Shown here: positions 913 through 36,251 of the stretch, piece after piece
Layout: each line of letters starts with the position of its first letter
Numbering within the stretch: position 1 is the stretch's first letter
Assembly (NCBI RefSeq): GCF_001419985.1
Contig: NZ_LJAL01000008.1
Span: forward strand, 1-64,000
Direction: 5' to 3'
DNA from: Loktanella sp. 5RATIMAR09
Lineage (GTDB): Bacteria; Pseudomonadota; Alphaproteobacteria; Rhodobacterales; Rhodobacteraceae
Length of the DNA: 64,000 nucleotides
The notes under the pieces: model-generated
The model's database searches: none
What the model was told of the DNA's origin: nothing
The model's input: the letters and a program-made list of their open reading frames with translations, nothing else
Translations under genes and position numbers: made by a program

Positions 913-2856
913 TTAGCGGGCATTTTCTGCCAGTGCCTGTTGAATGACCGAGGCGATCAGTATCGCACCGTAGTGGCTGACGTGATTATCATCAAAGTAG
1001 AGTACAGCCCCATCACGCTGCGCGTTACACAGCATTGCTTCACAGAATATATCCACTGTCGGGATCGCAATAGCACTGCCAGCGCTGTCAAAAATCTTAT
1101 CAATAGGTGCATGCACTGCTTCATAGCCAGCACGAGGCAACTGACTTGGAACAGGTCGGCTCCATTCGAGCGATTTTGCGACCGCACTGGGGACGTGCCA
1201 CGGCTGCCCCGGCACTGTCTTTAACCAAAAAACCCTTTTGTCTTGTGCTTCCAGCGCTGCAACCGTTCGCTGAACTGAGGCTGCGAGGTTGCCACTCTCG
1301 GGTAGCTTCAAAACTGCTTCCCAGAATGAAACATCGTTACCAGTGTGGAACTGGCTGATATTATCCGTTGTCAGCCAACGTGAAACAAGAATGACGTCTC
1401 TTGTATGTTGCATCTCAAGAAATTTTAGGACTTCCAAGTTATGTTCATTGCAGTTTGTACGAAAAGGTAAGTTGCGGTTTCGCCGCCCCAAAAGAGAACT
1501 GCAGCCATTCTTGTAGATCACGAGGCCGGATGTATCTGTGTCCAGTGCCAGTTGAGCGAACCCCGCCCGCATAGCCCCGGCATGACTGTCGCCCCAAACA
1601 ATAAAATCGTAAGAGTCTTTTTCCGCGCCAACCTCGCAGGTGTTGCCATTTGGCAAGGCGGCAACAAAAACATTCCGACAGCCGAACCGAACCGCCGGAT
1701 CCACTTTGCCGGCCACACTCATTGCCGACAGAGAATCGGGGTGCCATCGATTTGGGAGCCCCTGTCCAGTGGTCAACACCGCTCCAAGCAAACTGATAGC
1801 GGCGAGAGTTGCTCCTAAAACTGACAGAAAGCGCGCAGTCGTGACAAAATCAGATTTCTTGCGAAAAGGTTGTTCTATGAAACGGTAACTCAGGACTGCA
1901 GCTACAAAGCTGGCGATGACAGCCAATGTTGTCTGGAGCAAGGTTAAGTCTATGACAGTGACATATTTTGCATATGATAAAATCGGCCAATGCCACAGAT
2001 AGACCGAGTAACTGATCAGCCCAATCCAGACAAAAAGCTTATAAGATAGAAGTCTGTTACATATGCTTTCTGGTCCTGCCCAGATATAGAGCGCTGCCCC
2101 AATCACACACGGTACAGCAAGTAAACCTGGGAAGGGCGGTCCTTTGCTGAGAAGCATAATCGATCCTAAAATCAAAACGCTACCAAGTACTGATGCGACT
2201 TGCGCGGTAAAACCTTTGGGGTCCCGTGTCGCGCAAATCCCAAGAACGGCGCCAATCCCCATTTCCCAAAACCGTGAAGTCAGCATGTAGAAAGCCCCAC
2301 TAGGGTTTGTGACGACAAGATACAGAGCTGCTGTAAATGATGCAATCGTCAGCAAAACAAGGGTTGAGACGACCCAGTTTGCCCGAAAGCGATAAACAAG
2401 GATCATCACGATTGGCGTAACAATATAGAACTGCTCTTCGACAGCTAAAGACCATAGGTGCAGCAGTGAGTAATTTTCTAGTGGGTCGGCAAAATACTGT
2501 ACTTCGTTCATAAAATAGAAGTTGGAAAGGAAGAGTGAAGATGCCACGGTTGCCTCACCAAGCGACTTCAAGTCATCGGGCAGGTAGATTAGTAATCCTG
2601 CGCACAACGCAAAAATGACAACGACAAGAAGTGCAGGCAAGATACGGCGTGCGCGGCGTTCATAAAATCGCCAGAAGGAAAAATCACCAGCTTCCAAATC
2701 TTGCATAATGATTCGGCAGATCAAAAAGCCAGAAATGACAAAGAAAATATCAACTCCGACAAAACCGCCAGGCAACAAGCTTTCATTCGCATGGAAACCG
2801 ACCACACTTAAAACAGCAACTGCTCTTAGACCGTCAATGTCTTTGCGGTACTGCAT
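913..2856 (-). CDS. Membrane acyltransferase (AT3 family) with C-terminal SGNH domain
   Basis: 647 residues. The N-terminal half is an acyltransferase-3 (OafA/OatA-like) membrane domain of about ten hydrophobic segments. It opens with RKDIDGLRAVAVL and the conserved His22 (VVGFHA), and carries GGFVGVDIFFVISGFLI and YSVYLWHWPIL. The C-terminal third is an SGNH-hydrolase-like domain with the block GDSHAG near residue 425 and the catalytic pair D622/H625 in DDNHVS. Proteins of this architecture move acetyl or other short acyl groups across the inner membrane onto periplasmic or extracellular polysaccharide. Its place beside the EPS genes suggests O-acylation of that polymer. The start follows directly from the conserved N-terminus. 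Confidence 0.9.
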   Translation of the reverse strand: MQYRKDIDGLRAVAVLSVVGFHANESLLPGGFVGVDIFFVISGFLICRIIMQDLEAGDFSFWRFYERRARRILPALLVVVIFALCAGLLIYLPDDLKSLGEATVASSLFLSNFYFMNEVQYFADPLENYSLLHLWSLAVEEQFYIVTPIVMILVYRFRANWVVSTLVLLTIASFTAALYLVVTNPSGAFYMLTSRFWEMGIGAVLGICATRDPKGFTAQVASVLGSVLILGSIMLLSKGPPFPGLLAVPCVIGAALYIWAGPESICNRLLSYKLFVWIGLISYSVYLWHWPILSYAKYVTVIDLTLLQTTLAVIASFVAAVLSYRFIEQPFRKKSDFVTTARFLSVLGATLAAISLLGAVLTTGQGLPNRWHPDSLSAMSVAGKVDPAVRFGCRNVFVAALPNGNTCEVGAEKDSYDFIVWGDSHAGAMRAGFAQLALDTDTSGLVIYKNGCSSLLGRRNRNLPFRTNCNEHNLEVLKFLEMQHTRDVILVSRWLTTDNISQFHTGNDVSFWEAVLKLPESGNLAASVQRTVAALEAQDKRVFWLKTVPGQPWHVPSAVAKSLEWSRPVPSQLPRAGYEAVHAPIDKIFDSAGSAIAIPTVDIFCEAMLCNAQRDGAVLYFDDNHVSHYGAILIASVIQQALAENAR

Positions 2857-2998
2857 CTAAAATTCGCTCTCAAGAATATACAAGCTGTCCTTAAATCACT
2901 TGTTCCGTCTAATGGCTGGCGGGTCAAGATCAGTGTCGCGCATAGCTAATGGGTTTATTCTACCTGGCAATGTGATTGCCGGATGCTAGGATCACGCC

Positions 2999-3480
2999 TC
3001 ATGACCGGAATATGACGATTGCTGCGACAGAGATTGGTGACAGGAACACTTTAGGGCAGAGATCCTAGCGGGTTAAGACACGTCACCAGTCTTTGAGCCT
3101 CCCGAACATGCGATTGATGCGGTTCCGGCGTCTCTAGCGACGCTTGTCGTATCTGACGACCTTGTTGCGTGACTTTCGACCTGAGATGCAAGGACGAGTT
3201 CCCGTGTCTGCCAAGACTTCCCGGATCCAACCTGCCTCATAACCCCAATCAGCCAATAGCCGTTCAGCATCCGGTAGACTTTTCAGCAAAGCTAATGCAG
3301 CGGTGTAATCGCTGACTTGACCGGCGGTGATAATGAAACGGATTGAGCGACCGTTGGCGTCAGTGACGGGGCGTAGTTTTGTATTCATGCCAACCTTGGT
3401 CCGCCCAGTCAGACATCCACGCCCCTTTTCTCAGCCCCAGACTTGTGACCTGACACTTTCTGCAAAGGCAGACGCAAGAT
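2999..3480 (-). pseudogene. IS5-family transposase remnant
   Basis: Read on the minus strand, the sequence gives a typical IS5-group DDE transposase C-terminal half: GRTKVGMNTKLRPVTD, LLADWGYEAGWIREVL, RPCISGRKSRNKVVRYDK, then RNRINRMFGRLKDW and CPKVFL. In-frame stops occur after YDKRR, after KDW and after VLTR, and the N-terminal half is missing. It is therefore a dead fragment. It is clearly related to the fragment at 11190-11700, which has the same orientation. Confidence 0.85.
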
Positions 3481-3622: not shown

Positions 3623-4426
3623 ATGCGCAGTTTCAGACATCTGATGAAGCTCGGCCTCGAGCGTCTCTCCGGCTACCAGGCTTGGCTTGAGCGATCTTCG
3701 GATGTTGGAGAGATTCGAGCCTTATTGAGATCGCTAGCACCCGTGCTCACCGAGCAACCCCTTGTAAGGATCGGTGGGCAGGATGATGGCGGCTATCTCC
3801 TACCTGACGACCTGTCAGGAGTTAAGGCTCTCATTTCACCGGGTGTTTCAACCGAAGTCAGTTTCGATCTTGCCATCGCAGATCGTTCAATAGATGTTTT
3901 CATGGCAGACGCCTCGGTTGATGGGCCGCCGGTCGAAAACCCACGTTTTCATTTTCACCCAAAGTTCGTAGACGTGTACGAAGATGATAAAAATATGCGG
4001 CTAGACACCCTATGCGGGTTACAGCCGGCAGGCGAAGACGGCGATCGAATTCTTCAAATGGACATTGAGGGAGCAGAATACCGCGTTCTTCTTGATCTCG
4101 ACGAAGAAATCCTCAAAAGCTTCCGGATCATGGTGATCGAGTTTCATCATTTGGACAAAATGTTTGCATCCTTCCCTCTAGATATAATTCACGCAACGTT
4201 TCAGAAGCTTTTACGTTATCACCAAGTTGTTCATATTCACCCTAATAATGTCGCGGAGCCAACAACAAGAGGCGATATTATCATACCGCCCATAATGGAG
4301 TTCACCTTTTACCGGAAGGATCGAGCGTCGGTGATGAAAAATCAAAGGCAGCAGTTCCCACACGAACTTGATCGAGACAATGTACCAGGTCGCCCAAAGC
4401 TCGTTCTTCCACGCTGCTGGCAATGA
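3623..4426 (+). CDS. FkbM-family methyltransferase
   Basis: 267 residues. The signature MDIEGAEYRVL at residues 146-156 is the conserved post-I block of FkbM-type SAM-dependent methyltransferases, and an upstream region around VRIGGQDDGGYLLPD is also typical. Enzymes of this type in polysaccharide clusters usually O-methylate a sugar residue. The gene sits first in a plus-strand run of EPS genes, just right of an IS5 remnant. The last ~30 residues (after FYRKD) look unlike the rest, so the C-terminus may have been altered by rearrangement. The substrate cannot be told from sequence. Confidence 0.8.
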   Translation: MRSFRHLMKLGLERLSGYQAWLERSSDVGEIRALLRSLAPVLTEQPLVRIGGQDDGGYLLPDDLSGVKALISPGVSTEVSFDLAIADRSIDVFMADASVDGPPVENPRFHFHPKFVDVYEDDKNMRLDTLCGLQPAGEDGDRILQMDIEGAEYRVLLDLDEEILKSFRIMVIEFHHLDKMFASFPLDIIHATFQKLLRYHQVVHIHPNNVAEPTTRGDIIIPPIMEFTFYRKDRASVMKNQRQQFPHELDRDNVPGRPKLVLPRCWQ

Positions 4427-4545
4427 CGAATATCTTCGCACCGGTGGGACTATTTTTCGACTAATACTTGGGCGATGCTCGTAAATTATCCAGTCGCAAT
4501 GGGTGGCGTTTCGACTGGCACCTTCAAATACCACAAGAAAGCAAA

Positions 4546-5340
4546 ATGATGTTTGATAAGTTCATTCCAAATGTACTGGATATGTATCGGAATAGGTTCT
4601 TCCAAGCTGATCCAAAAAAAGACACTTTTCTAGCTTCGTTTCCCCGATCAGGCAATACTTGGATCCGAACCATCCTCTTCCACTCCATACAAAATCGTCA
4701 ACCAATAAACCTATCTGAAGTTGATTTTGGAATTCCAGATACTCACTATCGTGTACCCCGCAACAAGATTATGAATTCATTAAATAGTGAGACTCAACAT
4801 CGACATATTGTAAAGACGCATGAACCTTATCGATGGGAAGTTGAGTATATCAACGCCGTTTATGTTGTTAGAGACCCACGAGACGTAATTCCATCATATT
4901 ATCGTTATATAAGCCGCAAGACAAACTCTGTAGAAATCGACTTCAATGAATTTGCTATTTCTTGCGTCAAAGGAGCCGTCTGGCCTTGCAGCTGGTTCGA
5001 ACATGCAATGTCATGGAAACATTTTCACGACATTGCCCCAGACAGAATAAGTCTGTTTCAATACCAAAAGCTTAAAATGCTAGACGTCGCAGAGATCGAA
5101 AGGTTCGGACGTGCTTTGAAAGTGCCCAAAACATGTGAACTCATTTCGCTTTTCAAATACTACGACATTGACCGAATGAGAAATCTCGAAGAGCTTGGAA
5201 ATCGTTCCAACGAATCTGCGCCAGGTTTCATTGGGACCGGGTATGCCCCCGCCGAACAAGCGGCGATCGTCGATGACACTATTAGGCAACACACACCGCA
5301 TTGGTATAGTTTGATGACTGAGTTTGGATATTCCACTTGA
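4546..5340 (+). CDS. PAPS-dependent sulfotransferase (sulfotransferase-1 type)
   Basis: 264 residues from the ATG at 4546, chosen because upstream codons look like untranslated sequence. The 5'-phosphosulfate loop is FPRSGNTW at residues 32-39. The 3'-phosphate-binding block is VVRDPRDVIPSYYRY from about residue 107. Both are diagnostic of cytosolic-type sulfotransferases that use PAPS. The C-terminal GYAPAEQAAI..HTPHWYSLMTEFGY is also usual for the family. Placement between a methyltransferase and a flippase suggests sulfation of the exopolysaccharide repeat unit or of a lipid-linked intermediate. The coding sequence is noticeably AT-rich, consistent with horizontal transfer. Confidence 0.85.
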   Translation: MMFDKFIPNVLDMYRNRFFQADPKKDTFLASFPRSGNTWIRTILFHSIQNRQPINLSEVDFGIPDTHYRVPRNKIMNSLNSETQHRHIVKTHEPYRWEVEYINAVYVVRDPRDVIPSYYRYISRKTNSVEIDFNEFAISCVKGAVWPCSWFEHAMSWKHFHDIAPDRISLFQYQKLKMLDVAEIERFGRALKVPKTCELISLFKYYDIDRMRNLEELGNRSNESAPGFIGTGYAPAEQAAIVDDTIRQHTPHWYSLMTEFGYST

Positions 5341-5379: not shown

Positions 5380-6939
5380 GTGGCCGTTGTTAGTCCAGTG
5401 AAGGCTTCTTTCTCTGCAGCGTCACGTGCTCGAAGCTTTGCAATGTCCCCTGGGGGCATGAGCATTATCGAACACGTAGCCTATCTCCTCATATCCATGG
5501 TAACGTTCGCTAGTTTGCTGAGCCGTTTCGGACTGGAAATTGTGGGCCTTTGGGTTCTGGTCACGGCTCTGCTAAATTATGCGCAGATCGGTGATCTCTG
5601 GTCCAAAGGGCTGCTGAGTTTCATCGGTCAGGAGCGCGGTCGTGGCGCACCTTCGGACGCTGCTGAATATGCATCGACGACGATTGTGACAGGTGCGATG
5701 GGATATCTTTTAGCAATGTCCATCGGTGGAGCGGCACTATACATTTTTGCGCCCCAACTCCTCCCCCCACACCATGTGGAGCTAGTTCGACATAATATAC
5801 CCCTGATGGTGGCTACCTATTGGCTTATCAACTCTGCTGGAAACTTTAGGCTCGCCTTTGTCGGTTTTGGTTTGGTATGGGTAAGTGCAATCCAACGGAT
5901 TGGAGGGTCGCTACTTTTTCTACTGGGGGTATTAGCGTTAGATCCGAGCAGCGGACTCACTGGCATCCTAACGTTACAGTTATTCCAGGGGGCAGTGATG
6001 CTGACCTTTGGAGTTCTTGCATTTTACGGCTTCATTGCTCGAAACATTCGCTATGCGCTCTGGGACCGAGCCAAATTCAGGCAACTTTTTAGTTTCGGCA
6101 GCAAGCTATTCTTTGTCGGTAGCGTGGAACTATCGATCCAACCAATGATTAGGCTTCTGTGCAGTCAAGTCGGCGGGCTTGAGTTGGTGGCTGTTCTAGA
6201 GATTGTGATGCGACTCATCGAAGGTTTCCGTGGGATGATTATTTCAGTTGGACAGGTAATGGTCACTTCATTGGCCCGGCATCACAGTAGTTCCCAGCCG
6301 GAGGACAAGACGGTGTTGCGCGATAATTTTGTTCAAGCTACGCAAGTGTTAATGGGCGGCGCTCTTATTGCCTTTTCCCTGCTCTTTTCAGCCGGCCCAT
6401 TAATCTCGCTTTTGTTTCTGGATGCCGATGCTCAATCTGGGCCGGGTGCTTCATTCCAGATCATGCTCTGGATGTTGGGTACAGCTTGGTTCATTAGCAC
6501 TTCTGCCGCAGCAGGATATTTCTTGTTGATGGCTTTGAGAGCATCGCGACAGCTGGTTCTTACAGTAATTATTCGGGCAGGGCTGATCGCTCTTATGGGG
6601 TTTCCACTTGGAGAAGCCTTCGGCCTATGTGGAGTACTAGCGACTGTGCTTCTAGCTTTCACATTGTCTTCAGCTCATTTATTCGTGAGGGTTTCCAAGT
6701 CCGTCCACCTTCAGTGCCCGCAAGGGCTGGTTGATTTGCTTCAGTCACAGTCATCTACCTTCATACCCTTCGCTTGGGCTAATGCGCTGTCGATCCTTTG
6801 GATCGTGTCGGCCAATTTAGTTGGCCAGCCTCTCATGTATGCCGTATATTCGGTTGGCTTTATTTCCACGGGACTTCTAGTAATTCGCTTCGGCCGCGTA
6901 AGGTGGCTGTTGCGAACCATAATGGACCTTCATGCGTGA
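5380..6939 (+). CDS. Polysaccharide flippase (Wzx-like, MOP superfamily)
   Basis: 519 residues with about a dozen hydrophobic segments spread along the whole length. The layout is that of MOP-family polysaccharide transporters: an N-terminal segment beginning near SIIEHVAYLLISMVTF, a central GSKLFFVGSVELSIQPMIR region and a C-terminal tail ending in a basic patch. Such proteins flip undecaprenyl-linked repeat units to the periplasm. A GTG at 5380 is the longest start; ATGs at residues 22 and 27 are alternatives. A Wzy-like polymerase lies downstream (8828), so a Wzx/Wzy route is likely. Confidence 0.8.
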   Translation: MAVVSPVKASFSAASRARSFAMSPGGMSIIEHVAYLLISMVTFASLLSRFGLEIVGLWVLVTALLNYAQIGDLWSKGLLSFIGQERGRGAPSDAAEYASTTIVTGAMGYLLAMSIGGAALYIFAPQLLPPHHVELVRHNIPLMVATYWLINSAGNFRLAFVGFGLVWVSAIQRIGGSLLFLLGVLALDPSSGLTGILTLQLFQGAVMLTFGVLAFYGFIARNIRYALWDRAKFRQLFSFGSKLFFVGSVELSIQPMIRLLCSQVGGLELVAVLEIVMRLIEGFRGMIISVGQVMVTSLARHHSSSQPEDKTVLRDNFVQATQVLMGGALIAFSLLFSAGPLISLLFLDADAQSGPGASFQIMLWMLGTAWFISTSAAAGYFLLMALRASRQLVLTVIIRAGLIALMGFPLGEAFGLCGVLATVLLAFTLSSAHLFVRVSKSVHLQCPQGLVDLLQSQSSTFIPFAWANALSILWIVSANLVGQPLMYAVYSVGFISTGLLVIRFGRVRWLLRTIMDLHA

Positions 6940-7358: not shown

Positions 7359-7628
7359 ATGCGCGAACTAGGGTTCATGGTATCGATGAGCGCAAATGGT
7401 GATTGTCATAACAACGCCAACGTCGAGACGTTCTTCAAGACCATCAAAGATGAACTGATCTGGCGACGGTCTGGGGAAACCCGCAGGCTAGCCGAGATAC
7501 GATATTCGAAGACAACAACGAACTTGCACTCTCCGCGCCGCCGCCATTCAGCTCTAGGCTGCAAAAGCCCCTTCACAAGCGAACGAAAGGTGGCTCAAAC
7601 GAGTACTTGGGGCGGCACAAAAGCGTGA
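7359..7628 (+). pseudogene. IS3-family OrfB transposase C-terminal remnant
   Basis: The translation shows the tail of an IS3-type integrase-core transposase: VSMSANGDCHNNANVETFFK, TIKDELIWRRSGETR, then RRRHSALGCKSP and VAQTSTWGG. The catalytic Glu region (NVETFFKTIK) is present, but the whole N-terminal part and OrfA are gone. It is a dead fragment in the same strand sense as the EPS genes. Confidence 0.85.
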
Positions 7629-7848
7629 CAGGTCCACTTTTAGCGGCGCATATAATGATGTAGTTTTTACTACATAGATCCTTTCAACAGTGTTGAAAGA
7701 GTTCTGATATAACAATAGGGTGGGTAACGTGATGAATACGAAAGGTTCTATTTGATGGGTGGACCACACAAGGCATCCTCTCTCTGGCGGAATTTTGCCT
7801 CTTTCAGTGCAGTGAAGCAAGCATCCTTGGTAGTTGGCTCCGAACTTT

Positions 7849-8637
7849 ATGGATGAGCTTTCTGGAAAAAATAGTCTCGGTAAGCATGATGGTGACAAAA
7901 CAGCACCTTTCGTTACAGTCATTACTTCGACCCTCAATGCGGAGAAAACCATTGATGCGTTGATAAGTTCTTTGCGCGATCAAAGTGATCGCAATTTTAA
8001 ATGGATCGTGGCTGACGGAGCATCAACTGACCAAACTTTAGATAGAATCAGAGAGGCCGGAGATGTCGTTACGCAGCTCATCATGGGACCAGATTTCGGA
8101 ATATATGATGGACTCAACAGGGCGATTGGATTCGTTAAAACTCCCTATTATTTGGTCATTGGCGCGGACGACGTGTTAGACCCTGACGCGATTGCAAGCT
8201 TCAACCATGCAGCAAAGGACAGCGAATTTGATTTTATTTCAGGTCATGTCCGCATGTCGGGTGGAGGCATGCTCCGGCCTAAGCGCGGGAACGCATTTCG
8301 ATATGGTCACTTAGCATACGTGTCTCAGCATTCAGTTGGAACTCTGATCAAGACAGATTTGCACCAAAAGATAGGCCTATATTCTAACCGCTTTCCAATC
8401 GCAGCTGATCGACATTTCATCCTGAATGCCATTGAGCATCACGGGGCATCCGTTGAGGCACTTGACACAACGATAGGGACCTACGCCATGACGGGAACGT
8501 CAAACACGCAACTGTATAATACGCTTCTCGATATGTACAAGGTTGACTATGCTCTTTCCAAAAGACCTTTTCTTACTGCACTTAAGTCGGTTGTGAGGCA
8601 CGTCGCCAACCTGCCGCGCCTTGCTCGACAAGGTTGA
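7849..8637 (+). CDS. Family 2 glycosyltransferase
   Basis: 262 residues from ATG 7849. It opens with the GT2 nucleotide-binding block VTVITSTLNAEKTIDALI and continues with WIVADGASTDQT, GPDFGIYDGLNRAI and the metal-binding acidic stretch IGADDVLDPDA. This is a WcaA/WcaE-like GT-A enzyme. It is related to the enzyme at 13609-14358, which shares the GASTD and GIYD(G/A)LN blocks. Expected role: adding one sugar to the lipid-linked EPS repeat unit on the cytoplasmic face. The sugar specificity is unknown. Confidence 0.88.
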   Translation: MDELSGKNSLGKHDGDKTAPFVTVITSTLNAEKTIDALISSLRDQSDRNFKWIVADGASTDQTLDRIREAGDVVTQLIMGPDFGIYDGLNRAIGFVKTPYYLVIGADDVLDPDAIASFNHAAKDSEFDFISGHVRMSGGGMLRPKRGNAFRYGHLAYVSQHSVGTLIKTDLHQKIGLYSNRFPIAADRHFILNAIEHHGASVEALDTTIGTYAMTGTSNTQLYNTLLDMYKVDYALSKRPFLTALKSVVRHVANLPRLARQG

Positions 8638-8827: not shown

Positions 8828-10084
8828 ATGATCTCTTTCAGAAAAAGCCTTGGACTTTTATTTTGCATCTTAGCCCTGATGCCATGGGTAAGTATGGGGA
8901 CCAATAACCTTGACTCGCAACCATGGCCAACTTTGGGAGGAATCATTTTTATTGCCTCATGCGGATTAAAATTAAAAACTCCACCGCATTTGTTGATTGT
9001 TGTTGCACTGATATCTTTCGGTTTCGTAATTTCTGCGCTCGTTTCTGATCAATTAGGAGGTTTCATATTTGCCCGTGCTGTGATGACCTACTTATCTATC
9101 ATTGTTTCATACATGGCTTTCTATCTATTTATTATTCGTTATGGCTTCCCTTGGCGCATCGTTATTTTCATAAACATCTTCTGGATAGCGATTGGAGTTG
9201 CCGAGTTGCTTAACCCCGAAATATCAGAGATGTTTGGACAGCGAAGAACTACTCTGGATCGCGGTGTGACGTCCCTTGCACCCGAACCTACATACTTTGC
9301 GATATACCTTTTCTTCAGTTCTTGGCTAATGCTCTTCGCCGCCCACTACAAACCGAAAGGAGGTGTCTCGGCATTGATACTCCTCAATATCACGGCGATC
9401 CTCTTCCTGGCAAAATCAACCATGGGAGTTCTGTTCGTGATCATTGCCGTGTTTGCGCTTGCCGCCTACAAAGCAAGTCGGTTCCGCCCAAATCAGCGCG
9501 ATCTATTGATCATTGGTACTTGCGCAATAGCATTTTACGTCTTTGCGGCGGCTGGAGATTTTTTTCTCGAAGAAAGCAGGATCGCAAGAATCAGCAGTAC
9601 TTTTGCAGACTTGTCTATATTGGATGTCATGCAAGTAGATGCCAGCATCAACCAGCGGCTAGAGGCGGTTGTCTTGTCGTTGCATGGTGCCCTTTACCAC
9701 AATCTAATACCTGCCGGGCTGGATACTTTTTTGGTTACACGAGACAGAGTCGTGGACCAATACAATGGTTTCTTCTGGTATCTCACGGAATCAAACAAGA
9801 TCATGAGTTGGATTGGGGCTATGGTTTATGAATTGGGAGTCTTTGGCATAGCAGCACTGAGTTTAATGTTCTCAGCGGCGTTTGACAAAACAGTTAGATC
9901 CTTTTGGGGGTTATGCGTACTGTTCATATTGCTCCTCAGTGCGATTCCCCTCTCATTTCCGCTCGTACCGATGCTTCTGGCCATGATGACTGCTCAGCAT
10001 AGTGTCGCATTCAAGGCGCCATTGGTTCGTAAGGCTCATCATGTCGATGCCCAAAGACTCCGAGGCTATCAGAGGTCTGGCTGA
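8828..10084 (+). CDS. O-antigen/EPS polymerase (Wzy-like)
   Basis: 418 residues, strongly hydrophobic, with roughly ten predicted membrane segments and a large loop around residues 240-320 that carries SINQRLEAVVLSLHGAL. Wzy/O-antigen-ligase-type proteins have little sequence identity, so the call rests on topology, the periplasmic-loop layout and the position between GT2 and GT4 genes. The gene is AT-rich. An O-antigen-ligase-like enzyme is the alternative. Confidence 0.7.
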   Translation: MISFRKSLGLLFCILALMPWVSMGTNNLDSQPWPTLGGIIFIASCGLKLKTPPHLLIVVALISFGFVISALVSDQLGGFIFARAVMTYLSIIVSYMAFYLFIIRYGFPWRIVIFINIFWIAIGVAELLNPEISEMFGQRRTTLDRGVTSLAPEPTYFAIYLFFSSWLMLFAAHYKPKGGVSALILLNITAILFLAKSTMGVLFVIIAVFALAAYKASRFRPNQRDLLIIGTCAIAFYVFAAAGDFFLEESRIARISSTFADLSILDVMQVDASINQRLEAVVLSLHGALYHNLIPAGLDTFLVTRDRVVDQYNGFFWYLTESNKIMSWIGAMVYELGVFGIAALSLMFSAAFDKTVRSFWGLCVLFILLLSAIPLSFPLVPMLLAMMTAQHSVAFKAPLVRKAHHVDAQRLRGYQRSG

Positions 10085-16969: not shown

Positions 16970-16972
16970 TGA

Positions 16973-26114: not shown

Positions 26115-26128
26115 AAAGAGAGGTGTCA

Positions 26129-26380
26129 ATGATCACTGGTGCTCAAATTCGAATTGCCAGAACAGCGGTTCGGTGGACCGCTGAAGAATTGGCCGCAAAC
26201 AGTGGTGTAGGCGCAAGAACAATTAAGCGCATTGAGAAAGCAAACGGGCTACCCGACTCGACAGTATCGACGATATCCAAACTTAAAAACACACTCGAAG
26301 CCGCCGGCATTGAATTCATCGGCACCCCTGAAGATGGCCCTGGGATCCGGATCCATGCAAAGCCGGATCGCGACGCTTAG
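26129..26380 (+). CDS. Small XRE-type transcriptional regulator
   Basis: 83 residues from ATG 26129, preceded by AGAGAGG. The Cro/C1-type helix-turn-helix occupies most of the protein: GAQIRIARTAVRWTAEELA, then NSGVGARTIKRIEKANGLP. The tail, KNTLEAAGIEFIGTPEDG, is the typical ending of short roseobacter XRE proteins (LEAAGIEFI). It probably represses its own promoter and the divergent integrase through the palindromes at 26083-26114. It is followed 9 bases later by the vanZ-like gene. Confidence 0.88.
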   Translation: MITGAQIRIARTAVRWTAEELAANSGVGARTIKRIEKANGLPDSTVSTISKLKNTLEAAGIEFIGTPEDGPGIRIHAKPDRDA

Positions 26381-28605: not shown

Positions 28606-29053
28606 ACCAACCCGCGAAAGAGACCGCCGCGCCACAGGTCCACGGACATCTGAAGGACGCAAACGCGCAGCCCAAAATGCCCGGCGCCACGGCCTCACCG
28701 CAAGCAGATCAAACGAAGCGGCAATCACTGCGCAAGTCGCGCATTGGATCACAGGGACTCTGCTCGCCACCGCACCGTACACTGCTCTTATGAGGCTTGC
28801 CGAAGCACGCTATCAAGTTGCGCAGGTACGGGACTATCAAGTTTTTCTGCTTGAGCAACTCAGTAACTTTGTCAGTGCCGAAGCCCAGCAGCTGAGTGCG
28901 ACAGATCAGCCAACGCAAACTGATCGCACCACTCTCGTCCAACACTATCAACTTTCTTTACGTTACCGCGCCGAAGCAGAAGCACGCGTACGGAAAGCAC
29001 TACGGGACATAACGGCGCACATGACCGCAAGAAATGCCACAGGGAATACATGA
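28595..29053 (+). CDS. Hypothetical protein with TGPRT..G...N..RHG motif
   Basis: 152 residues from ATG 28595, which overlaps the stop of the preceding gene; the longer frame to 28514 lies inside that gene. The N-terminus RRATGPRTSEGRKRAAQNAR followed by RHGLTA is a short basic motif seen in many small proteins of mobile elements and prophage-like loci. The remainder is helical (YQVAQVRDYQVFLLEQLSNF). No enzymatic motif is seen. A nucleic-acid-binding role is a guess from the basic N-terminus. Confidence 0.75.
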   Translation: MSAEPTRERDRRATGPRTSEGRKRAAQNARRHGLTASRSNEAAITAQVAHWITGTLLATAPYTALMRLAEARYQVAQVRDYQVFLLEQLSNFVSAEAQQLSATDQPTQTDRTTLVQHYQLSLRYRAEAEARVRKALRDITAHMTARNATGNT

Positions 29054-29054
29054 G

Positions 29055-29684
29055 ATGCCGCGCAGGAAAGCAAAACCCAAAAGCCCGTTGCGGCGCACAT
29101 GGCCGCTCGACTCGGAGCAACATGAGGCCTTTGTGCGGGAGTACCATGAGAGCTTTGACCCTGTCAGAGCTGCCTTGCGCGCAGGCATTGAGACCCCTCA
29201 CGTCAGCGGGCCACAATTGCTTGAACGTGAAGACATTCAGGCTCGCTTGCGCGGATACCGCATCGGCACCGATGCGCCGGCGCACTCGGCATCCGGCATA
29301 GCAAGACATCTGCTTCAAAGTTCGTTTGCAACGCGCAAACCCGGTCTTACTCAAGACATCGTGACGGGTCAGATGCGACCGAATTGGGAGTTGATTAACG
29401 AGCAGGATCCACACTTTGTTGAGCATGAAGAGATCATTCAGAACAAAGGTGGCATTCCTGTCCGGACAACCCGCCTGCGCAAGCGCGCAACCTTTGAAGC
29501 CCTAAAAACAGTGGCGCAGCAGCTCGATGCACTCGTGCAGCATTCAGGGGACTCCGATGATCGTTTGTCGCAGGCGCTCATCGATATCAGCCGGAGAGGC
29601 TCCGCTGCGCCAATCGCAACAGAAGTGAGAAGAAAAGCAGGCGCTGCCGCAAGACTGCAAGAAGATAAGGCAAAGGATACATGA
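29055..29684 (+). CDS. Terminase-small-subunit-like protein
   Basis: 209 residues from ATG 29055, one base after the previous stop. Residues 19-60 (EQHEAFVREYHESFDPVRAA, then LRAGIETPHVSGPQLLEREDIQARL) follow the helix-turn-helix of phage terminase small subunits: a KQ/EAFVREY start, an A-A-x-R-A-G centre and LL..xxIQ at the end. The middle part (NWELINEQDPHFVE) and basic tail are also compatible. No large terminase, portal or capsid gene follows, so this is a stand-alone or domesticated copy. Confidence 0.6.
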   Translation: MPRRKAKPKSPLRRTWPLDSEQHEAFVREYHESFDPVRAALRAGIETPHVSGPQLLEREDIQARLRGYRIGTDAPAHSASGIARHLLQSSFATRKPGLTQDIVTGQMRPNWELINEQDPHFVEHEEIIQNKGGIPVRTTRLRKRATFEALKTVAQQLDALVQHSGDSDDRLSQALIDISRRGSAAPIATEVRRKAGAAARLQEDKAKDT

Positions 29685-30201
29685 GGCCTACAGCACCTTG
29701 GTGTCCTCAGCACAGGTACTGAAACCGGAGACAACCCGAAAAATGTATTTTCCCGAAACGAACTCCCCCAAAATGACCATGGGAAATCAACCCTGCTTAA
29801 GCAGTGCTGACACTGCGTATATCGCCCGAAATGATCACCTATCCGCAATGGCCAGGAGGCGCATAGCAGCCCCTGTCATCTCAAACGCCCAATCTCACCA
29901 CTTTGCCGGTTTGCAAACGCCCGATAACGCGCAAATCGCTGTTGCCCGGCTGTCAGGGAGGTTGGTCGGTCTTGGCAGCGAAAACGCAGGACGGCTCTGG
30001 CAAAGCCAAGCATTACTCTAAGTTCATGCCCCAAAGCCACCGTGCCGCCTCGGTCCGTCACAGACCCTTCAGGACGCAGCGCAAAACACCAGACATGCAA
30101 GCCGTCGGCGGCATTCATGTTGCATAGAACTGTTGGCATTTCAGCGCCTGCATGGGACAACCTACATCGACGATTTCATTCTTGGACAAGCACGCATTAA
30201 A
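29685..30201. other. Intergenic region before gmd
   Basis: About 515 bases. Open frames exist on both strands (for example 29876-30160 minus) but none has a recognisable domain or good start. The region must carry the gmd promoter. It looks like a boundary between the mobile cassette and the sugar-nucleotide operon. Confidence 0.45.
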
Positions 30202-31323
30202 ATGACAAAAACTGCACTCATCACAGGCATCACCGGGCAAGATGGCTCTTACCTTGCTGAATTCTTGCTCGAAAAAGGGTACAAGGTACATGGCATCAAA
30301 CGCCGTGCGTCCTCTTTCAACACCCAGCGGGTCGATCACATCTATGAGGATCCCCATGTCGATAACGCGCGTTTCAAGCTGCATTATGGTGATCTGACCG
30401 ACACCTCGAACCTCACACGCATCCTGTCCGAGGTTCAGCCCGATGAGGTCTATAACCTTGGCGCGCAATCCCATGTTGCGGTGAGTTTCGAGGCCCCCGA
30501 ATACACCGCCGATGTTGATGGCATCGGGACATTGCGGCTTTTGGAAGCCATCCGTTTTCTGGGGCTCGACAAAAAATCCCGTTTCTATCAGGCCTCCACA
30601 TCCGAACTTTACGGCCTTGTCCAAGAGACGCCCCAACGCGAAACAACGCCATTTTACCCGCGCTCTCCTTACGCGGTTGCAAAGCTCTATTCCTATTGGA
30701 TGACAGTCAATTACCGCGAGGCCTACGGGCTTTATGCCTGCAACGGCATCCTGTTTAACCACGAAAGCCCGCGGCGCGGCGAAACCTTTGTGACGCGCAA
30801 GATTACCCGTGGTCTGGCGCATATCGCCCAAGGGCTGGAGCCGTGTCTTTATATGGGCAACATCGACAGCCTGCGCGACTGGGGCCATGCCAAGGATTAC
30901 GTGCGGATGCAGTGGATGATGCTGCAACAGGACGAGCCCGAGGATTTTGTCATCGCCACCGGCAAGCAACACTCTGTGCGTGACTTCATCAACTGGTCTG
31001 CGGCCGAATTGGGGCTGACGCTGAAATTTACCGGCGAAGGTGTGGATGAGGTGGCCAGGGTCGCCAGCATCACCGGCGATATGGCCCCTGCCCTGAAGCC
31101 GGGCGATGTGATCATGCGGATCGACCCGCGCTATTTCCGCCCCGCCGAAGTTGAAACGCTGCTCGGCGATCCTTCCAAGGCCAAGCAGAAACTTGGCTGG
31201 GAACCCCAGATCACTGCTCAAGAAATGTGCGCCGAAATGGTGGCCGAAGACCTGAAAACCGCCCGGAGGCACGCGTTTCTCAAGGCGAACGGGATGGACG
31301 TACCCGTCGCATATGAGAGCTGA
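30202..31323 (+). CDS. gmd: GDP-mannose 4,6-dehydratase
   Basis: 373 residues from ATG 30202; the frame is open upstream but the conserved protein starts here ([20 protein letters not shown]). It is an SDR-fold enzyme with the NAD(P)-binding TGITGQDG, the T-E pair in STSELYG and the catalytic Tyr-Lys in [10 protein letters not shown]. It converts GDP-D-mannose to GDP-4-keto-6-deoxy-D-mannose, the first step to GDP-L-fucose. It is followed directly by fcl and then manC and manB, a complete pathway operon. Confidence 0.96.
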
Positions 31324-31324
31324 G

Positions 31325-32293
31325 ATGGCGGGGATGCAAAAGGTATATGTGGCAGGCCATCGCGGCATGGTTGGCGGCGCCATCCTGCGCCAGTTGAAAG
31401 AACGCGGGGATGCAGAGATCATCACCCGCACCCATGCGGAACTGGACCTGACAGACCAACCAGCGGTACGTGATTTCATGCAGGCCGAACAGCCCGACGT
31501 CGTCATCCTTGCCGCTGCCAAAGTGGGGGGCATCCACGCCAACAACACCTACCCCGCTGATTTTATTTACGAAAACCTGATGATTGCTAGCAATGTCATC
31601 CATCAGGCCTATGCTGCGGGCGTCACGCGCCTGCTACAACTGGGCTCGTCGTGCATCTATCCGCGCGATGTGGCCCAGCCGATGCGCGAAGACGCTTTGC
31701 TGACAGGCACGCTTGAACCCACAAACGAACCTTACGCTGTGGCCAAAATCGCAGGGATCAAGCTTTGCGAAAGCTACAACCGCCAGCACGGTGTCGATTA
31801 TCGCAGTGTGATGCCGACCAATCTTTACGGCCCCGGCGATAATTTCCACCCTGAAAACAGCCATGTCTTGCCCGCTTTGATGCGCCGCTTCCATGAAGCC
31901 ACGCAACAAAACCGGGACGAGGTTGTGATCTGGGGCACAGGATCGCCACGGCGCGAATTCCTGCATGTCGATGATATGGCCGCTGCCTCGCTCTTTGTGC
32001 TGGACCTGCCGAAACCCGACTATGACGCCAACACCGATCCGATGCTGAGCCACATCAATGTGGGTTCTGGCACCGATATTTCGATCCTTGAACTGGCGCA
32101 TGCTCTGGCAAAGATCACCGGTTTTCAGGGCCGGATCACAACCGACCCCACCAAGCCTGACGGCACGCCACGCAAACTGATGGATGTGGGGCGTCTGGCC
32201 AAGATGGGCTGGCGCGCGCGCATCGGCCTTGAGAAAGGGATCGCGGAAACTTACCAATGGTATTTGGCGAATGTGGAAAACCTGAGGGGTTAA
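31325..32293 (+). CDS. fcl: GDP-L-fucose synthase
   Basis: 322 residues from ATG 31325, one base after the gmd stop; ATGs at 31313 and 31334 are alternatives. The epimerase/reductase motifs are [14 protein letters not shown] (cofactor loop), GSSCIYPRD (Ser/Cys) and [13 protein letters not shown] (Tyr-Lys). It turns GDP-4-keto-6-deoxy-mannose into GDP-L-fucose. Its presence says L-fucose is likely a component of the polysaccharide made by this strain. Confidence 0.95.
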
Positions 32294-32299
32294 GGCGGC

Positions 32300-33748
32300 A
32301 TGGCACATATGATCAATCCGGTATTGCTCTGCGGCGGCGCAGGCACACGGCTTTGGCCGCTGTCGCGCAAATCCTACCCAAAACAGTTCGTAAAATTGAT
32401 CGGCGAGGAAAGCCTGTTTCAGGCCTCGGCGCGGCGGCTGAGCGGTGCGGGTTTTACCGCCCCATCTGTGGTAACAGCGGCGGATTTCCGGTTCGTCGTG
32501 CTGGAACAACTGGCCGCGCTGGAAATCGCCCCCGCCGATGTCCTGATCGAACCCGCAGCCAAAAACACCGCCGCCGCGATTTGTGCTGCGGCACTGGCGC
32601 TTGACGCCCGCGCACCCGGCGCGTTGATGTTGATTGCCCCGTCGGATCACGTGATCCCTGACGCCGAGCAGTTCCGCGCAACGGTTGCCGCTGCTGTACC
32701 CGCAGCGCTGGACGGTCAATTGGTGACTTTCGGCATCCGGCCAGACCGCCCCGAAACAGGCTATGGCTGGCTTGCCCTGTCAGACGCGCCTACCGCTGAC
32801 TTTGCACCCACGCCACAACCGTTGCAGGGCTTCGTCGAAAAGCCGGATCTTGCGACGGCGCAGACGCTTTTGTCGGGTGGGATGCACCTGTGGAATGCAG
32901 GAATTTTCCTGTTCTCGACAACTACGATCCTTGCCGCCTTTGCGCAACATGCGCCTGAGGTGCTGGCCGCAACGCGTGCGGCCTTTGAAGCCGCCGAGGC
33001 CGATCTCTCCTTTACCCGCCTCGCCCCTGACGCTTGGGCGGATTGTCCCGAAATCTCCATTGACTACGCCGTGATGGAACAGGCCAAGAACCTGACCGTC
33101 GTGCCCTATGGCGGCGCGTGGTCCGACCTTGGCGATTGGCAGGCGGTTTGGCGTGACGGCAAAGCAGACGCGCAGGGTGTTGTTACATCCGGCCCCGCCA
33201 CCTCCATCGACTGCAAAGACACGCTTTTGCAGGCAACCAGCGGCGCGCAGCAACTGGTTGGCATTGGGTTGGACGGTCTGGTCGCCATCGCAATGCCCGA
33301 TGCCGTTCTGATCGCGCACAAAGACCGTGCGCAGGATGTCAAACAGGCGGTTGTCAAACTCAAGGCCGCTGATGTCCCCCAAGCCGAAACCCTGCCCCGC
33401 GATTATCGCCCTTGGGGGTGGTACGAAAGCCTCGTGGTGGGGACACGTTTTCAGGTGAAGCGGATCGTCGTGCATCCGGGTGCGGCACTATCGCTGCAAA
33501 GCCACCATCACCGGGCCGAACACTGGATTGTCGTTGAAGGGACCGCGAAAGTGACCATCGACGACACGGTCCAGCTATTGAGCGAGAACCAGTCTGTTTA
33601 TATCCCGCTGGGCGCAGTGCACCGCATGGAAAACCCCGGCAAGTTGCCGCTGACACTGATCGAGGTGCAGACAGGGGGCTATTTGGGTGAGGACGATATC
33701 ATCCGCTACGACGACGTTTACGCCCGCGGCCAAGGGGCGAAAGGATGA
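32300..33748 (+). CDS. manC: Mannose-1-phosphate guanylyltransferase / mannose-6-phosphate isomerase
   Basis: 482 residues, bifunctional. The N-terminal pyrophosphorylase domain has LLCGGAGTRLWPLSRKSYPK and FVEKPDLATAQTLL. The C-terminal cupin isomerase domain has RPWGWYESLVVGTRFQVKRI, LSLQSHHHRAEHWIVVEG and IPLGAVHRMENPG. It supplies GDP-mannose for gmd. It overlaps manB by 4 bases. Confidence 0.95.
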   Translation: MAHMINPVLLCGGAGTRLWPLSRKSYPKQFVKLIGEESLFQASARRLSGAGFTAPSVVTAADFRFVVLEQLAALEIAPADVLIEPAAKNTAAAICAAALALDARAPGALMLIAPSDHVIPDAEQFRATVAAAVPAALDGQLVTFGIRPDRPETGYGWLALSDAPTADFAPTPQPLQGFVEKPDLATAQTLLSGGMHLWNAGIFLFSTTTILAAFAQHAPEVLAATRAAFEAAEADLSFTRLAPDAWADCPEISIDYAVMEQAKNLTVVPYGGAWSDLGDWQAVWRDGKADAQGVVTSGPATSIDCKDTLLQATSGAQQLVGIGLDGLVAIAMPDAVLIAHKDRAQDVKQAVVKLKAADVPQAETLPRDYRPWGWYESLVVGTRFQVKRIVVHPGAALSLQSHHHRAEHWIVVEGTAKVTIDDTVQLLSENQSVYIPLGAVHRMENPGKLPLTLIEVQTGGYLGEDDIIRYDDVYARGQGAKG

Positions 33749-35112
33749 GCCCGCTTACCTGTTTCAAGGCTTACGATATCAGGGGGCGGCTTGGCATCGA
33801 CCTTGATGCCGGAATCGCCTACCGCATTGGCCGCGCCTTTGCAGAAGCGTTGGGTGCAAAAACCGTGGTTCTCGGGCGCGACGTCAGGGCCTCGTCCGAG
33901 GAACTCGCAGCAAGTGTCGCGCGCGGGGTGATGGATGCGGGCTGTGATGTGCTTGATCTGGGGCTTGCGGGCACCGAAGAGATGTATTTCGCAACCACAC
34001 ATTTCAATGCGGATGGCGGGATCTGCGTGACGGCCTCGCATAATCCGATGGATTATAACGGGATGAAAATGGTGCGGTCGGGGTCTGCGCCATTAGATGC
34101 GGCGCACGGGTTGGCGCGGATCAAAACGCTAGCCGAGAAAAATGAGTTCGCCAATGCCGACACCGCCGGTGCGCTACGCGATATCGCAGCCGAAGCGCGT
34201 GTCGCCTATGTCGATTGCATGATGTCTTTCGTTGATCTGGACGCACTCAATCCGCTCAAGATTTTGGTGAACGCCGGACACGGGACGGCCGGGCCAACCT
34301 TTGATGCCATCGCCGCAAAGCTTGAGTTACTTGGTGCGCCCCTGACATTTGAACGGCTCTTCCATACGCCCGACGGCACCTTCCCCCAAGGTATCCCCAA
34401 CCCGCTCTTGCCCGAGAACCGCCCTGCAACGGCATCGGCTGTCGCCCGATCGGGTGCGGATTTCGGCGTCGCGTGGGACGGTGATTTTGACCGCTGTTTC
34501 TTCTTTGACCACACAGGTGATTTCATCGACGGCGAATATGTCGTGGGGCTTTTGGCCGAGGCGTTTTTGGCCAAAGAACCGGGTGCCAAAATCATCCACG
34601 ACCCACGCATCATCTGGAATACCCAAGACATCGTGAGCAAGGCAGGCGGCAAAGCCGTGCAATCGCCCACCGGCCACGCCTTTATCAAACAGGCGATGCG
34701 TGATGAGAACGCCGTCTATGGCGGCGAGATGTCGGCACACCACTATTTCCGCGACTTTGTGTTTTGTGACAGCGGCATGATCCCCCTGCTACTCGTTGCC
34801 GAACTGGTCAGCCGCAACGGCCCTCTTGCGGATCTTGTGGCGCAGCGCAAGATTGCCTTCCCGTCGTCGGGAGAGATCAATTTCTCACTGGACGATCCAA
34901 AGGCCGCAATCGCGCGGGTCCGCGCCGCATACGCCCCTCAGGCCAGCGCAATCGACGAAACAGATGGCCTTGGAATGATCATGGGGGACTGGCGTTTCAA
35001 CCTGCGCAGCTCGAATACCGAGCCGATTGTCCGCTTGAATGTCGAAGCGCGCGGTGATGCCCGTCTGGTCAGCGAAGGTGTCGCGCATTTGAAAAGGCTT
35101 CTTCTTCTCTGA
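33745..35112 (+). CDS. manB: Phosphomannomutase
   Basis: 455 residues. The alpha-D-phosphohexomutase blocks are all present: the phospho-Ser loop TASHNPMDYNGMK, the Mg-binding DGDFDRCFF, the sugar-recognition GGEMSAHHYFRDF and the phosphate-binding RSSNTEPIVRLN. It interconverts mannose-6- and mannose-1-phosphate. It is the last gene of the gmd-fcl-manC-manB operon and converges on the WecA-like gene. Confidence 0.95.
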   Translation: MSPLTCFKAYDIRGRLGIDLDAGIAYRIGRAFAEALGAKTVVLGRDVRASSEELAASVARGVMDAGCDVLDLGLAGTEEMYFATTHFNADGGICVTASHNPMDYNGMKMVRSGSAPLDAAHGLARIKTLAEKNEFANADTAGALRDIAAEARVAYVDCMMSFVDLDALNPLKILVNAGHGTAGPTFDAIAAKLELLGAPLTFERLFHTPDGTFPQGIPNPLLPENRPATASAVARSGADFGVAWDGDFDRCFFFDHTGDFIDGEYVVGLLAEAFLAKEPGAKIIHDPRIIWNTQDIVSKAGGKAVQSPTGHAFIKQAMRDENAVYGGEMSAHHYFRDFVFCDSGMIPLLLVAELVSRNGPLADLVAQRKIAFPSSGEINFSLDDPKAAIARVRAAYAPQASAIDETDGLGMIMGDWRFNLRSSNTEPIVRLNVEARGDARLVSEGVAHLKRLLLL

Positions 35113-35147
35113 TCGTCCGGTATGAACGTGAAAATCCGGCGGCCTGG

Positions 35148-36251
35148 CTAGGCCTCTCGCGATCTTTGCCGAAAGGCGCGTACCGCTGGAACTGAGACCA
35201 GATAGGACCCGAAGAAAGCGGCGAGAAACGCCAGCACAGCCAGAAACGCAGCGCGGTTATCATTCCAGAACAGCACGCCGCACACCTGCGGCGCAATCAC
35301 GAATGGCGCAAGCACGAGTGTCGTCAGCGGATTGGCAATGCGGCGCCGCTTGCGTCCGAGAAAGCAAATCTCCAACCCGCGCATCACAAGTTGATGAAAG
35401 TGCAGACGGTCCGGCGACATGGCATCTTTCTTTGACCTGCTGCGCCGGTACATCGCAAAGAGCGTATCCGCGAGCGGCCAGAACAACGTCAGCAAGATCG
35501 CCCATGCGGACACCTGCGGCGCAAAGATCAGCACGGCAATACCGAACCAACAGAGCATAAAACCGATTGTATAGGCGCCAGCATCGCCGAGAAAAATCAA
35601 ACCGAGCGGGAAATTCACCAAAAAGAAACCCAAGACAACAGCAGCGAGCATCATGCTCAAAATGACCATCGTTCCATGCCCGGCCTGCAGCGAAATGAGT
35701 GCGATGGATACAGCAGCACCAATCGCGGTCAGCCCCGCGAGACCGTTCACACCATCAATCAGGTTAAAACCGTTCGCAACGCCAGCTGTGATCAACAAGG
35801 TGAAAGGCACGCCGACAATCCAATACTGCATCAACAGGTCGAAATACGGCACATTGATGCGCGGCAACCAGACGCCAAACAGGGCGATGACAATCAAACT
35901 GGCAAGACAAACCGCCAGCAGCCGCCTGCGCGGTGAAACCCGAAAACCCAGATCCTCGCTCAGTCCCACAAAGAAAAGCAGCGTTGTTGCGATGATGAAA
36001 CCGGCATAGTTCGGCAGGATGGTGTCCGGCGCAAAGACGACACTCAGGGCAAGAGCAAGAAAGATCGCTACACCACCGATGCGCGGCGTCGGCCGCGAAT
36101 GCATTGATTGCACTGCATTCTCATCATCGCCGCGGCCGCGCAACCGCGGGAAAATCTGCGCCAGTGCGATGATGCCCAAACACCCCACGAATGAAACGAA
36201 CATCAGGTAGCCCAGATAATACTGAAAGAGCTGGGCCACGTCAGACTGCAT
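35148..36251 (-). CDS. WecA/MraY-type UDP-sugar:undecaprenyl-phosphate transferase
   Basis: 367 residues from ATG 36251; a TTG at 36263 is also possible. Roughly ten membrane helices are seen. The conserved loops are MHSRPTPRIGGVAIF, NGFNLIDGVNGLAG (catalytic Asp), FLGDAGAYTIGF and the cytoplasmic DRLHFHQLV. This fits a polyprenyl-phosphate HexNAc-1-P transferase that starts repeat-unit synthesis. The usual DD pair reads SEDLGF here. As no other initiating transferase is in the window, it may prime the EPS. Confidence 0.88.
   Translation of the reverse strand: MQSDVAQLFQYYLGYLMFVSFVGCLGIIALAQIFPRLRGRGDDENAVQSMHSRPTPRIGGVAIFLALALSVVFAPDTILPNYAGFIIATTLLFFVGLSEDLGFRVSPRRRLLAVCLASLIVIALFGVWLPRINVPYFDLLMQYWIVGVPFTLLITAGVANGFNLIDGVNGLAGLTAIGAAVSIALISLQAGHGTMVILSMMLAAVVLGFFLVNFPLGLIFLGDAGAYTIGFMLCWFGIAVLIFAPQVSAWAILLTLFWPLADTLFAMYRRSRSKKDAMSPDRLHFHQLVMRGLEICFLGRKRRRIANPLTTLVLAPFVIAPQVCGVLFWNDNRAAFLAVLAFLAAFFGSYLVSVPAVRAFRQRSREA

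Follow-up and report, generated by a model that had tools for sequence, protein, structure and literature searches.

A probable Wzx/Wzy-type exopolysaccharide or capsule locus for a fucose-containing, probably sulfated polymer in Loktanella sp. 5RATIMAR09

Introduction

Which genes might a marine roseobacter use to build a polysaccharide that carries both fucose and sulfate, and do they lie together in one locus? In the sea, polymers of fucose and sulfate may be hard to degrade, and they may be similar to the fucans of algae. We analysed a window of 64 kb, the first 64 kb of contig C8 (179,170 bases) of Loktanella sp. 5RATIMAR09 (genome of 3.70 Mb in 43 contigs), which holds genes for GDP-fucose synthesis, glycosyltransferases, a sulfotransferase and a polysaccharide export set. 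We read them, with a probability of roughly 0.6, as a Wzx/Wzy-type exopolysaccharide (EPS) or capsule locus on the chromosome of Yoonia/Loktanella whose product is a fucose polymer, probably sulfated. Fucose in the polymer is very likely; we infer that the polymer also carries sulfate, which is probable, and O-acetyl groups, which is the weaker proposal.

Results

Gene order of the export and fucose blocks

Protein families were assigned with the curated cut-offs of Pfam and NCBIfam, and phrog matches were used for phage- and transposase-like genes (Table 1). A preliminary description of the window had listed the genes of GDP-fucose synthesis, and these stand: Gmd, Fcl and ManC all exceed curated cut-offs and, with ManB, provide the GDP-L-fucose pathway. 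Residues 8-326 of Fcl align with the E. coli enzyme 1bsv. ManB was assigned at family level from its Pfam domains (best NCBIfam model CpsG, 636 against a cut-off of 801), and so was the WecA-like initiator, which scored 96 bits with the WecA model, far below the cut-off of 326. The listed export set of Wza, Wzb, Wzc, YjbF and YjbH was likewise supported by Pfam; the co-polymerase/kinase Wzc, Wzb and Wza are all present, as expected of a Wzx/Wzy-dependent locus. An adjoining type I secretion pair (21970-25010) had been overlooked. Among named organisms, relatives of the window YjbH occur in Loktanella sp. PT4BL (82%) and Yoonia litorea (64%). Contig C8 also encodes a second, distant YjbH (26%; C8:132932-134632).

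Gene order in relatives, a comparison that the preliminary description had proposed, was read by blastn (DNA match threshold E 1e-5) against a 36 kb stretch of one relative, G006, and a 48 kb stretch of a sister species, G009. Positions 14784-25091 and 29915-43882 of the window were collinear with G006, with almost identical stretches for G009. The export and fucose halves adjoin in G009, 0.86 kb apart, whereas the window has a 4.9 kb insert there. Because the sister species has both blocks side by side without the insert, the two are, judged by gene order, a single locus. On the same comparison the fixed frame common to the two relatives is Wzc-Wzb-Wza-YjbF-YjbH, then gmd-fcl-manC-manB and the WecA-like initiator. 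G006 has a further WecA-like gene, 64% identical to that of the window, adjoining Wzc (L071 4224-5348).

The 0.86 kb spacer of G009 holds an RfaH-like gene (120 bits, below the cut-off of 144.5), and G006 carries both the RfaH-like gene (78%) and the recombinase of the insert. No RfaH-like gene was found by tblastn within the window, to which the search was limited (best E 1.7). G006 and G009 have the RfaH-like gene at the place that corresponds to window positions 25010-25179; in the window, the recombinase starts there.

A low-GC cassette at the contig end

The left 14.8 kb of the window is a low-GC cassette: its nine genes have 42.5-50.6% GC, against 55.8-59.3% for the seven frame genes measured. 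To the left of 14784, blastn gave no match in the 48 kb stretch of G009, and in the 36 kb stretch of G006 the glycosyltransferase GT2b alone matched. G009 holds a different set there (two methyltransferases, a Wzx-like gene, two GT4, WecG and Wzy_C). This is a common arrangement, in which the sugar cassette varies and is replaceable while the export frame stays constant.

The window starts at a contig end, a point overlooked before, and the cassette is therefore cut. The left flank gene of G009 has its counterpart (94%) at C18 2110-3300, reading toward the contig start and followed by a Wzy_C protein. From this arrangement, C18 and C8 are probably neighbours that face one another, with an assembly gap within the cassette between them. 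The acidic open reading frame (ORF) cut by the contig end, which has no Pfam (E 5) and no NCBIfam match, may encode a secreted surface protein, possibly also the cause of the assembly break.

A candidate fucosyltransferase in the cassette

The three glycosyltransferases of the preliminary description were recovered by Pfam as GT2 (GT2a), GT4 and GT2 (GT2b). The GT2b gene of the cassette is 16 kb away from gmd. Relatives of GT2b (47-62% identical) lie no more than 5 kb from both gmd and fcl in 10 of the 11 organisms read: Roseivivax THAF40, Sulfitobacter W027, S. faviae OXR-9, Pseudosulfitobacter MC52-18, Novosphingobium, Cereibacter, Sagittula, Citrobacter, Enterobacter and Proteus. The first four were drawn from fcl or recombinase matches and are not independent; among the organisms chosen from GT2b matches alone, gmd and fcl are nearby in six of seven. 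The search returned 52 records, of which 30 are Pseudosulfitobacter plasmids that appear nearly identical, and GT2b and fcl are 1.9-3.9 kb apart in the 32 records listed for both. A GT2b relative also stands directly upstream of gmd in Yoonia litorea. The nearest NCBIfam model is the colanic-acid WcaE, at 64 of 369 bits and so far under its cut-off. Because its relatives mostly adjoin gmd-fcl, GT2b is, by gene context, the best candidate for the fucosyltransferase. GT2a and the Dinoroseobacter shibae GT2 were considered as the gmd-linked glycosyltransferase and were rejected.

The sulfotransferase and its neighbours

The sulfotransferase, named earlier as dependent on 3'-phosphoadenosine 5'-phosphosulfate (PAPS), holds up through its PF00685 match and its motifs. 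Compared with four bacterial relatives (22-27% identical), it keeps the phosphosulfate loop, the KTH histidine and the RDxRD...S motif, which we take to be the 5'-phosphosulfate loop, the catalytic histidine and the 3'-phosphate motif, respectively. Residues P59, S61-W65, K116, H118, R135, D136, R138, D139 and S143 are invariant in this five-row alignment, and the motif stretches align with SULTs of solved structure in the PDB. An adenosine 5'-phosphosulfate (APS) kinase domain occurs in a 612-aa frame on contig C9, which gives the strain a means of making PAPS. The ORFs of the FkbM enzyme, the sulfotransferase and the Wzx-like protein share one orientation, with gaps of 41 bp and 39 bp, measured from the first possible start codon (true starts may differ).

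Annotated sulfotransferases were found near gmd-fcl in Sagittula stellata, Dinoroseobacter shibae, Sulfitobacter W027 and Pseudosulfitobacter. The sulfotransferases of gmd-fcl loci span PF00685, PF03567 and PF13469; because the enzymes belong to different Pfam families, sulfation may have been gained on more than one occasion. On contig C2 of the source genome (about 81.1-82.8 kb), a 571-aa ORF carries a sulfotransferase and then a GT2 domain in frame, a natural fusion. PF00685 frames of 500-600 aa also occur in several relatives, and a longer one in G021 is a TPR-sulfotransferase.

Other proteins of the cassette

The FkbM methyltransferase proved weaker than first stated: it passes the Pfam cut-off but scores 28.8 against 37.7 with TIGR01444, leaving a family-level assignment. 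Also weaker are the Wzx-like and Wzy-like proteins, putative calls from hydrophobic segments (counted by Kyte-Doolittle hydrophobicity) that match no relevant Pfam family: at a threshold of E 5 the former had no match, and the latter matched a single irrelevant family at E 0.14.

The O-acyltransferase was borne out by its AT3 and SGNH domains. Its AT3 domain is 44% identical over 275 aa to the acyltransferase encoded between gmd and fcl in Sagittula stellata, and a PDB search gave no match at 0.01. A 526-aa protein had been overlooked. It matches no Pfam family itself at E 1, and neither it nor its alignment gave PDB matches beyond short, chance-like ones. Among the eight aligned members of its family, five match PF01663 type I phosphodiesterase (best 5e-05) and two match PF00884 sulfatase, and for this reason it is likely an alkaline-phosphatase-type enzyme. 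Single-sequence structure predictions of this protein and of the sulfotransferase each had a mean pLDDT of 32.3.

A recombinase module between the blocks

Two mobile regions had been placed between the export and fucose blocks. We found a single integrase module there (25.1-29.9 kb); two transposase remnants lie inside the cassette instead. The insert also encodes a Hint-domain protein (27051-27611), common to G006.

Relatives of the recombinase with at least 60% identity occur in 43 plasmid records from six genera, Rhodobacterales wherever a record was read. Polysaccharide or nucleotide-sugar genes lie within 10 kb in 13 of 13 plasmid records, a count not controlled for the density of such genes; three of the 13 came from fcl matches and the other ten from recombinase matches alone. 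In the same records an annotated helix-turn-helix (HTH) gene adjoins in nine and a terminase small subunit is nearby in five. Sulfitobacter W027 has a second recombinase copy 11 kb from fcl. No lox-type inverted repeat (11-bp arms, up to one mismatch, spacer of 5-10 bases) was found within 1.5 kb of the recombinase gene, and a search for a common DNA motif around recombinase genes gave two overlapping 13-mers that were present in 5 of 11 groups and whose positions varied. Viral contigs held one recombinase relative (67%). Our literature search found no paper linking such recombinases to polysaccharide loci.

It is a tentative idea, and a doubtful one at present, that the module, made up of the Cre-like recombinase, the divergent HTH regulator, the VanZ-like protein and the terminase-small-like protein, inhabits Rhodobacterales polysaccharide loci and helps to swap or rearrange sugar cassettes rather than having inserted at random. 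If so, a shared fucose and export frame would be fitted with different polymers, here a sulfated one. We treat the association as a lead rather than a result.

Table 1. Positions, strands and family evidence for the features of the window
Feature	Position	Strand	Evidence
Open-ended ORF, acidic protein	3..518	-	cut by contig end
AT3-SGNH acyltransferase (likely O-acetyltransferase)	913..2856	-	PF01757 1e-34, PF19040 1e-45
Transposase remnant	3134..3388	-	phrog_4716 4e-12
FkbM-type methyltransferase	3623..4426	+	PF05050 30.7 bits, cut-off 22.7
PAPS-type sulfotransferase	4468..5340	+	PF00685 (Sulfotransfer_1) 7.5e-20
Wzx-like membrane protein	5380..6939	+	10 hydrophobic segments
Transposase remnant	7359..7628	+	phrog_157 1e-14
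Glycosyltransferase GT2a	7834..8637	+	PF00535 1e-15
Wzy-like membrane protein	8828..10084	+	8 hydrophobic segments
Glycosyltransferase GT4	10139..11203	+	PF00534 3e-23
526-aa protein, distant alkaline-phosphatase-superfamily-like	11705..13285	+	Pfam matches of aligned relatives
Glycosyltransferase GT2b, candidate fucosyltransferase	13483..14358	+	PF00535 5e-23; homologous core about 13612-14358
Wzc	14780..16969	-	Wzz, WZC_N, GNVR, AAA_31
Wzb phosphatase	16973..17416	-	PF01451 9e-33
Wza export protein	17423..18631	-	PF02563, SLBB
YjbF	19000..19668	-	PF11102 8e-32
YjbH	19647..21779	-	PF06082 1e-198
HlyD-type adaptor (type I secretion)	21970..23274	-	TIGR01843 361 bits, cut-off 209
PrtD-type ABC exporter (type I secretion)	23271..25010	-	TIGR01842 675 bits, cut-off 510
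Cre-like tyrosine recombinase	25179..26129	-	PF00589 2e-21; 27.6% to P1 Cre over 87% of query
Divergent HTH regulator of module	26108..26380	+	PF01381 24.3 bits, cut-off 23
VanZ-like protein of module	26390..26752	+	PF04892 33.8 bits, cut-off 30.1
Terminase-small-subunit-like protein (weak)	29034..29684	+	phrog_51 5e-05; 38% over 53 aa to that of Roseivivax THAF40
Gmd, GDP-mannose 4,6-dehydratase	30133..31323	+	TIGR01472 583 bits, cut-off 415
Fcl, GDP-L-fucose synthase	31313..32293	+	NF047922 518 bits, cut-off 500
ManC	32300..33748	+	TIGR01479 570 bits, cut-off 373
ManB phosphomannomutase	33745..35112	+	PGM_PMM I-IV (Pfam)
WecA-like polyprenyl-phosphate glycosyl-1-phosphate transferase	35148..36263	-	PF00953 (Glycos_transf_4) 1.1e-27

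Discussion

In the pathway that we propose, the WecA-like enzyme would start the repeat unit on undecaprenyl phosphate, and GT2a, GT4 and GT2b would extend it, with GT2b adding L-fucose from GDP-fucose. While still in the cytoplasm, the lipid-linked repeat would receive sulfate from PAPS through the sulfotransferase and a methyl group through the FkbM enzyme. Wzx would flip the repeat and Wzy polymerise it; the AT3-SGNH protein may O-acetylate the polymer in the periplasm, and Wzc/Wza with YjbF/YjbH would export it. The cassette was probably acquired as a block, giving a lineage-specific polymer on a shared export and fucose frame. The preliminary description had joined the blocks into one polymer across the mobile DNA. 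This part of its account is strengthened, because the sister species is collinear without the insert and most relatives of the cassette glycosyltransferase GT2b adjoin gmd-fcl, while sulfation and acylation keep the conditional standing that they had.

Other products are conceivable. The locus might make a lipopolysaccharide O-antigen, ligated to lipid A-core by an O-antigen ligase, with Wza and YjbH serving another glycan; the WecA-like initiator and the Wzx/Wzy logic fit, as does the Wzy_C protein (O-antigen ligase family) at the C18 end beside the flank gene. However, the variable region abuts Wzc/Wza/YjbF/YjbH in the window, in G006 and in G009, and the available part of a report on Loktanella rosea describes a lipo-oligosaccharide with a hexasaccharide skeleton (PMC3210612). 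We consider an O-antigen unlikely, and slightly more so a fucose polymer whose neighbouring sulfotransferase acts elsewhere, on a lipid, a lipo-oligosaccharide or a small molecule. By sequence, the solved structures nearest to the window enzyme are SULTs whose names refer to phenols, steroids and other small molecules, and the genome has four PF00685 matches; we know of no relative of the window sulfotransferase with a known acceptor, which also counts for an acceptor elsewhere. Against it, the gene sits inside the cassette, tightly spaced between the FkbM and Wzx-like ORFs, and sulfotransferases recur within gmd-fcl loci. Quite improbable, finally, is that GDP-fucose feeds another glycan (for example through the glycosyltransferases of contig C1) and that the imported cassette makes a polymer without fucose. 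The genome does have 17 GT2 matches, seven of them on C1, and the gmd-fcl block is common to relatives with different cassettes, fcl being present in 27 of 36 sampled genomes of the genus; the position of the GT2b family beside gmd-fcl in nearly all organisms read argues the other way.

A number of observations weigh against a single locus for a sulfated fucose polymer. Y. litorea has gmd-fcl-manC on one contig and its closest export set on another. Our neighbourhood survey covered 60 genomes, the source genome included, and in it yjbH lies within 30 kb of fcl in only 4 of the 26 genomes that have both. PF00685 genes are widespread there (41 of 60 genomes) and lie within 30 kb of fcl in 4 of 37 fcl genomes, namely the source and three outside the genus; they occur within 20 kb of a yjbH in 3 of 32 yjbH genomes, again counting the source. 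In three overlapping samples, relatives of the sulfotransferase were found in 0 of 118, 1 of 389 and 7 of 397 other genomes, all at 32% identity or less. The two S. stellata sulfotransferases gave no BLAST match to the window enzyme at E 0.01. We checked eight Rhodobacterales plasmids drawn from fcl matches; six have no annotated sulfotransferase in the stretch read, where gene tables are incomplete and that of Aestuarium holds mostly unnamed proteins, and two, from Sulfitobacter W027 and Pseudosulfitobacter SM26-46, have one near fcl. As for the candidate fucosyltransferase, Antarctobacter has GT2b without gmd within 5 kb (manC is nearby), and 8 of the 40 fcl plasmid records listed, out of 308 found, have no GT2b match at 1e-50. 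Within the window, Wzx and Wzy are unproved, putative calls from membrane topology, the acyltransferase is on the opposite strand beyond a transposase remnant, and the contig end hides part of the cassette, so that gene lists are incomplete on that side.

The fucose polymer made by one Wzx/Wzy-type locus remains our preferred reading. It opens to genetic tests the way in which marine roseobacters may produce fucose-sulfate polymers like the EPS of Salipiger mucosus, as far as the available part of its report describes it (PMC2953402). A candidate fucosyltransferase (GT2b) and a candidate sulfotransferase can be named, and the comparison of sister species shows that cassettes are exchangeable on a constant export and fucose frame.

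Comparison with known systems

The export genes YjbF (GfcB family), YjbH and Wza-Wzb-Wzc are those of the E. coli group 4 capsule and Yjb export sets. The window has the same export genes, but with an adjoining type I secretion pair and a fucose block.

The plasmid pDSHI04 of Dinoroseobacter shibae resembles the window in having an FkbM gene, a sulfotransferase and gmd adjacent, together with fcl, manC, glycosyltransferases and a flippase; it differs in a NodZ-type gene and an ABC permease. D. shibae was the sole plasmid organism matched by the window sulfotransferase at E 1e-5. That the two share the same FkbM-sulfotransferase pair was rejected, the sulfotransferases being 24% identical and the FkbM similarity weak and partial. 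A NodZ search matched D. shibae plasmids alone. A link to the rhizobial NoeI/NoeE fucose decoration would be conjectural; our literature search, within the papers that it covered, found none that joins the two. In another alphaproteobacterium, G079, a tight locus encodes Wzz, a Wzy-like protein (under the Pfam cut-off), AT3, two sulfotransferases, a flippase, a pyruvyltransferase, GT2, WecG and fcl, with a neighbour judged by eye to be gmd.

Published systems are compared here through the available parts of their reports. Synechan (xss) of Synechocystis is, like the product proposed here, of Wzx/Wzy type, with two sulfotransferase genes in its cluster and measured sulfate; it is cyanobacterial, and the sugars given are rhamnose, mannose, galactose and glucose, not fucose (PMC8205485). 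The sulfated capsule of Vibrio sp. KMM 8419, whose structure has been reported, likewise comes from a marine proteobacterium with sulfotransferases and an acyltransferase, but is of ABC-transporter type with UDP-Glc and dTDP-Rha pathways; its PAPS genes are in the cluster, whereas the APS kinase of our strain is on another contig (PMC11641403). Cobetia marina provides a further sulfated bacterial polysaccharide with a gene cluster (PMC11766843). Our literature search, of partial coverage with most subscription journals outside it, found no roseobacter locus for a sulfated fucose polysaccharide.

The closest parallels come from the Roseobacteraceae themselves, the family of the source strain. 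In Sagittula stellata E-37 a plasmid locus (NZ_CP155733) resembles the window in gene content: an O-antigen ligase family protein, a GT2b relative (55%), gmd, an acyltransferase and fcl follow one another there, with two annotated sulfotransferases just upstream. It differs in being compact and plasmid-borne. Salipiger mucosus A3T is known through its EPS chemistry: the polymer, described in 2010, contains fucose at 13.4% of carbohydrate, with a low 0.9% sulfate, 0.9% acetyl (both by weight) and 6% pyruvic acid (PMC2953402). The preliminary description had held that a locus of this kind would be notable in a marine alphaproteobacterium. That view is weakened by the loci of S. stellata, D. shibae, W027 and Pseudosulfitobacter and by the S. 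mucosus EPS. Because this EPS has fucose, sulfate and acetyl groups and S. stellata has a compact comparable locus, the novelty is modest: the locus is real and mostly ordinary, and it adds a good new case to a type of locus that related bacteria also have.

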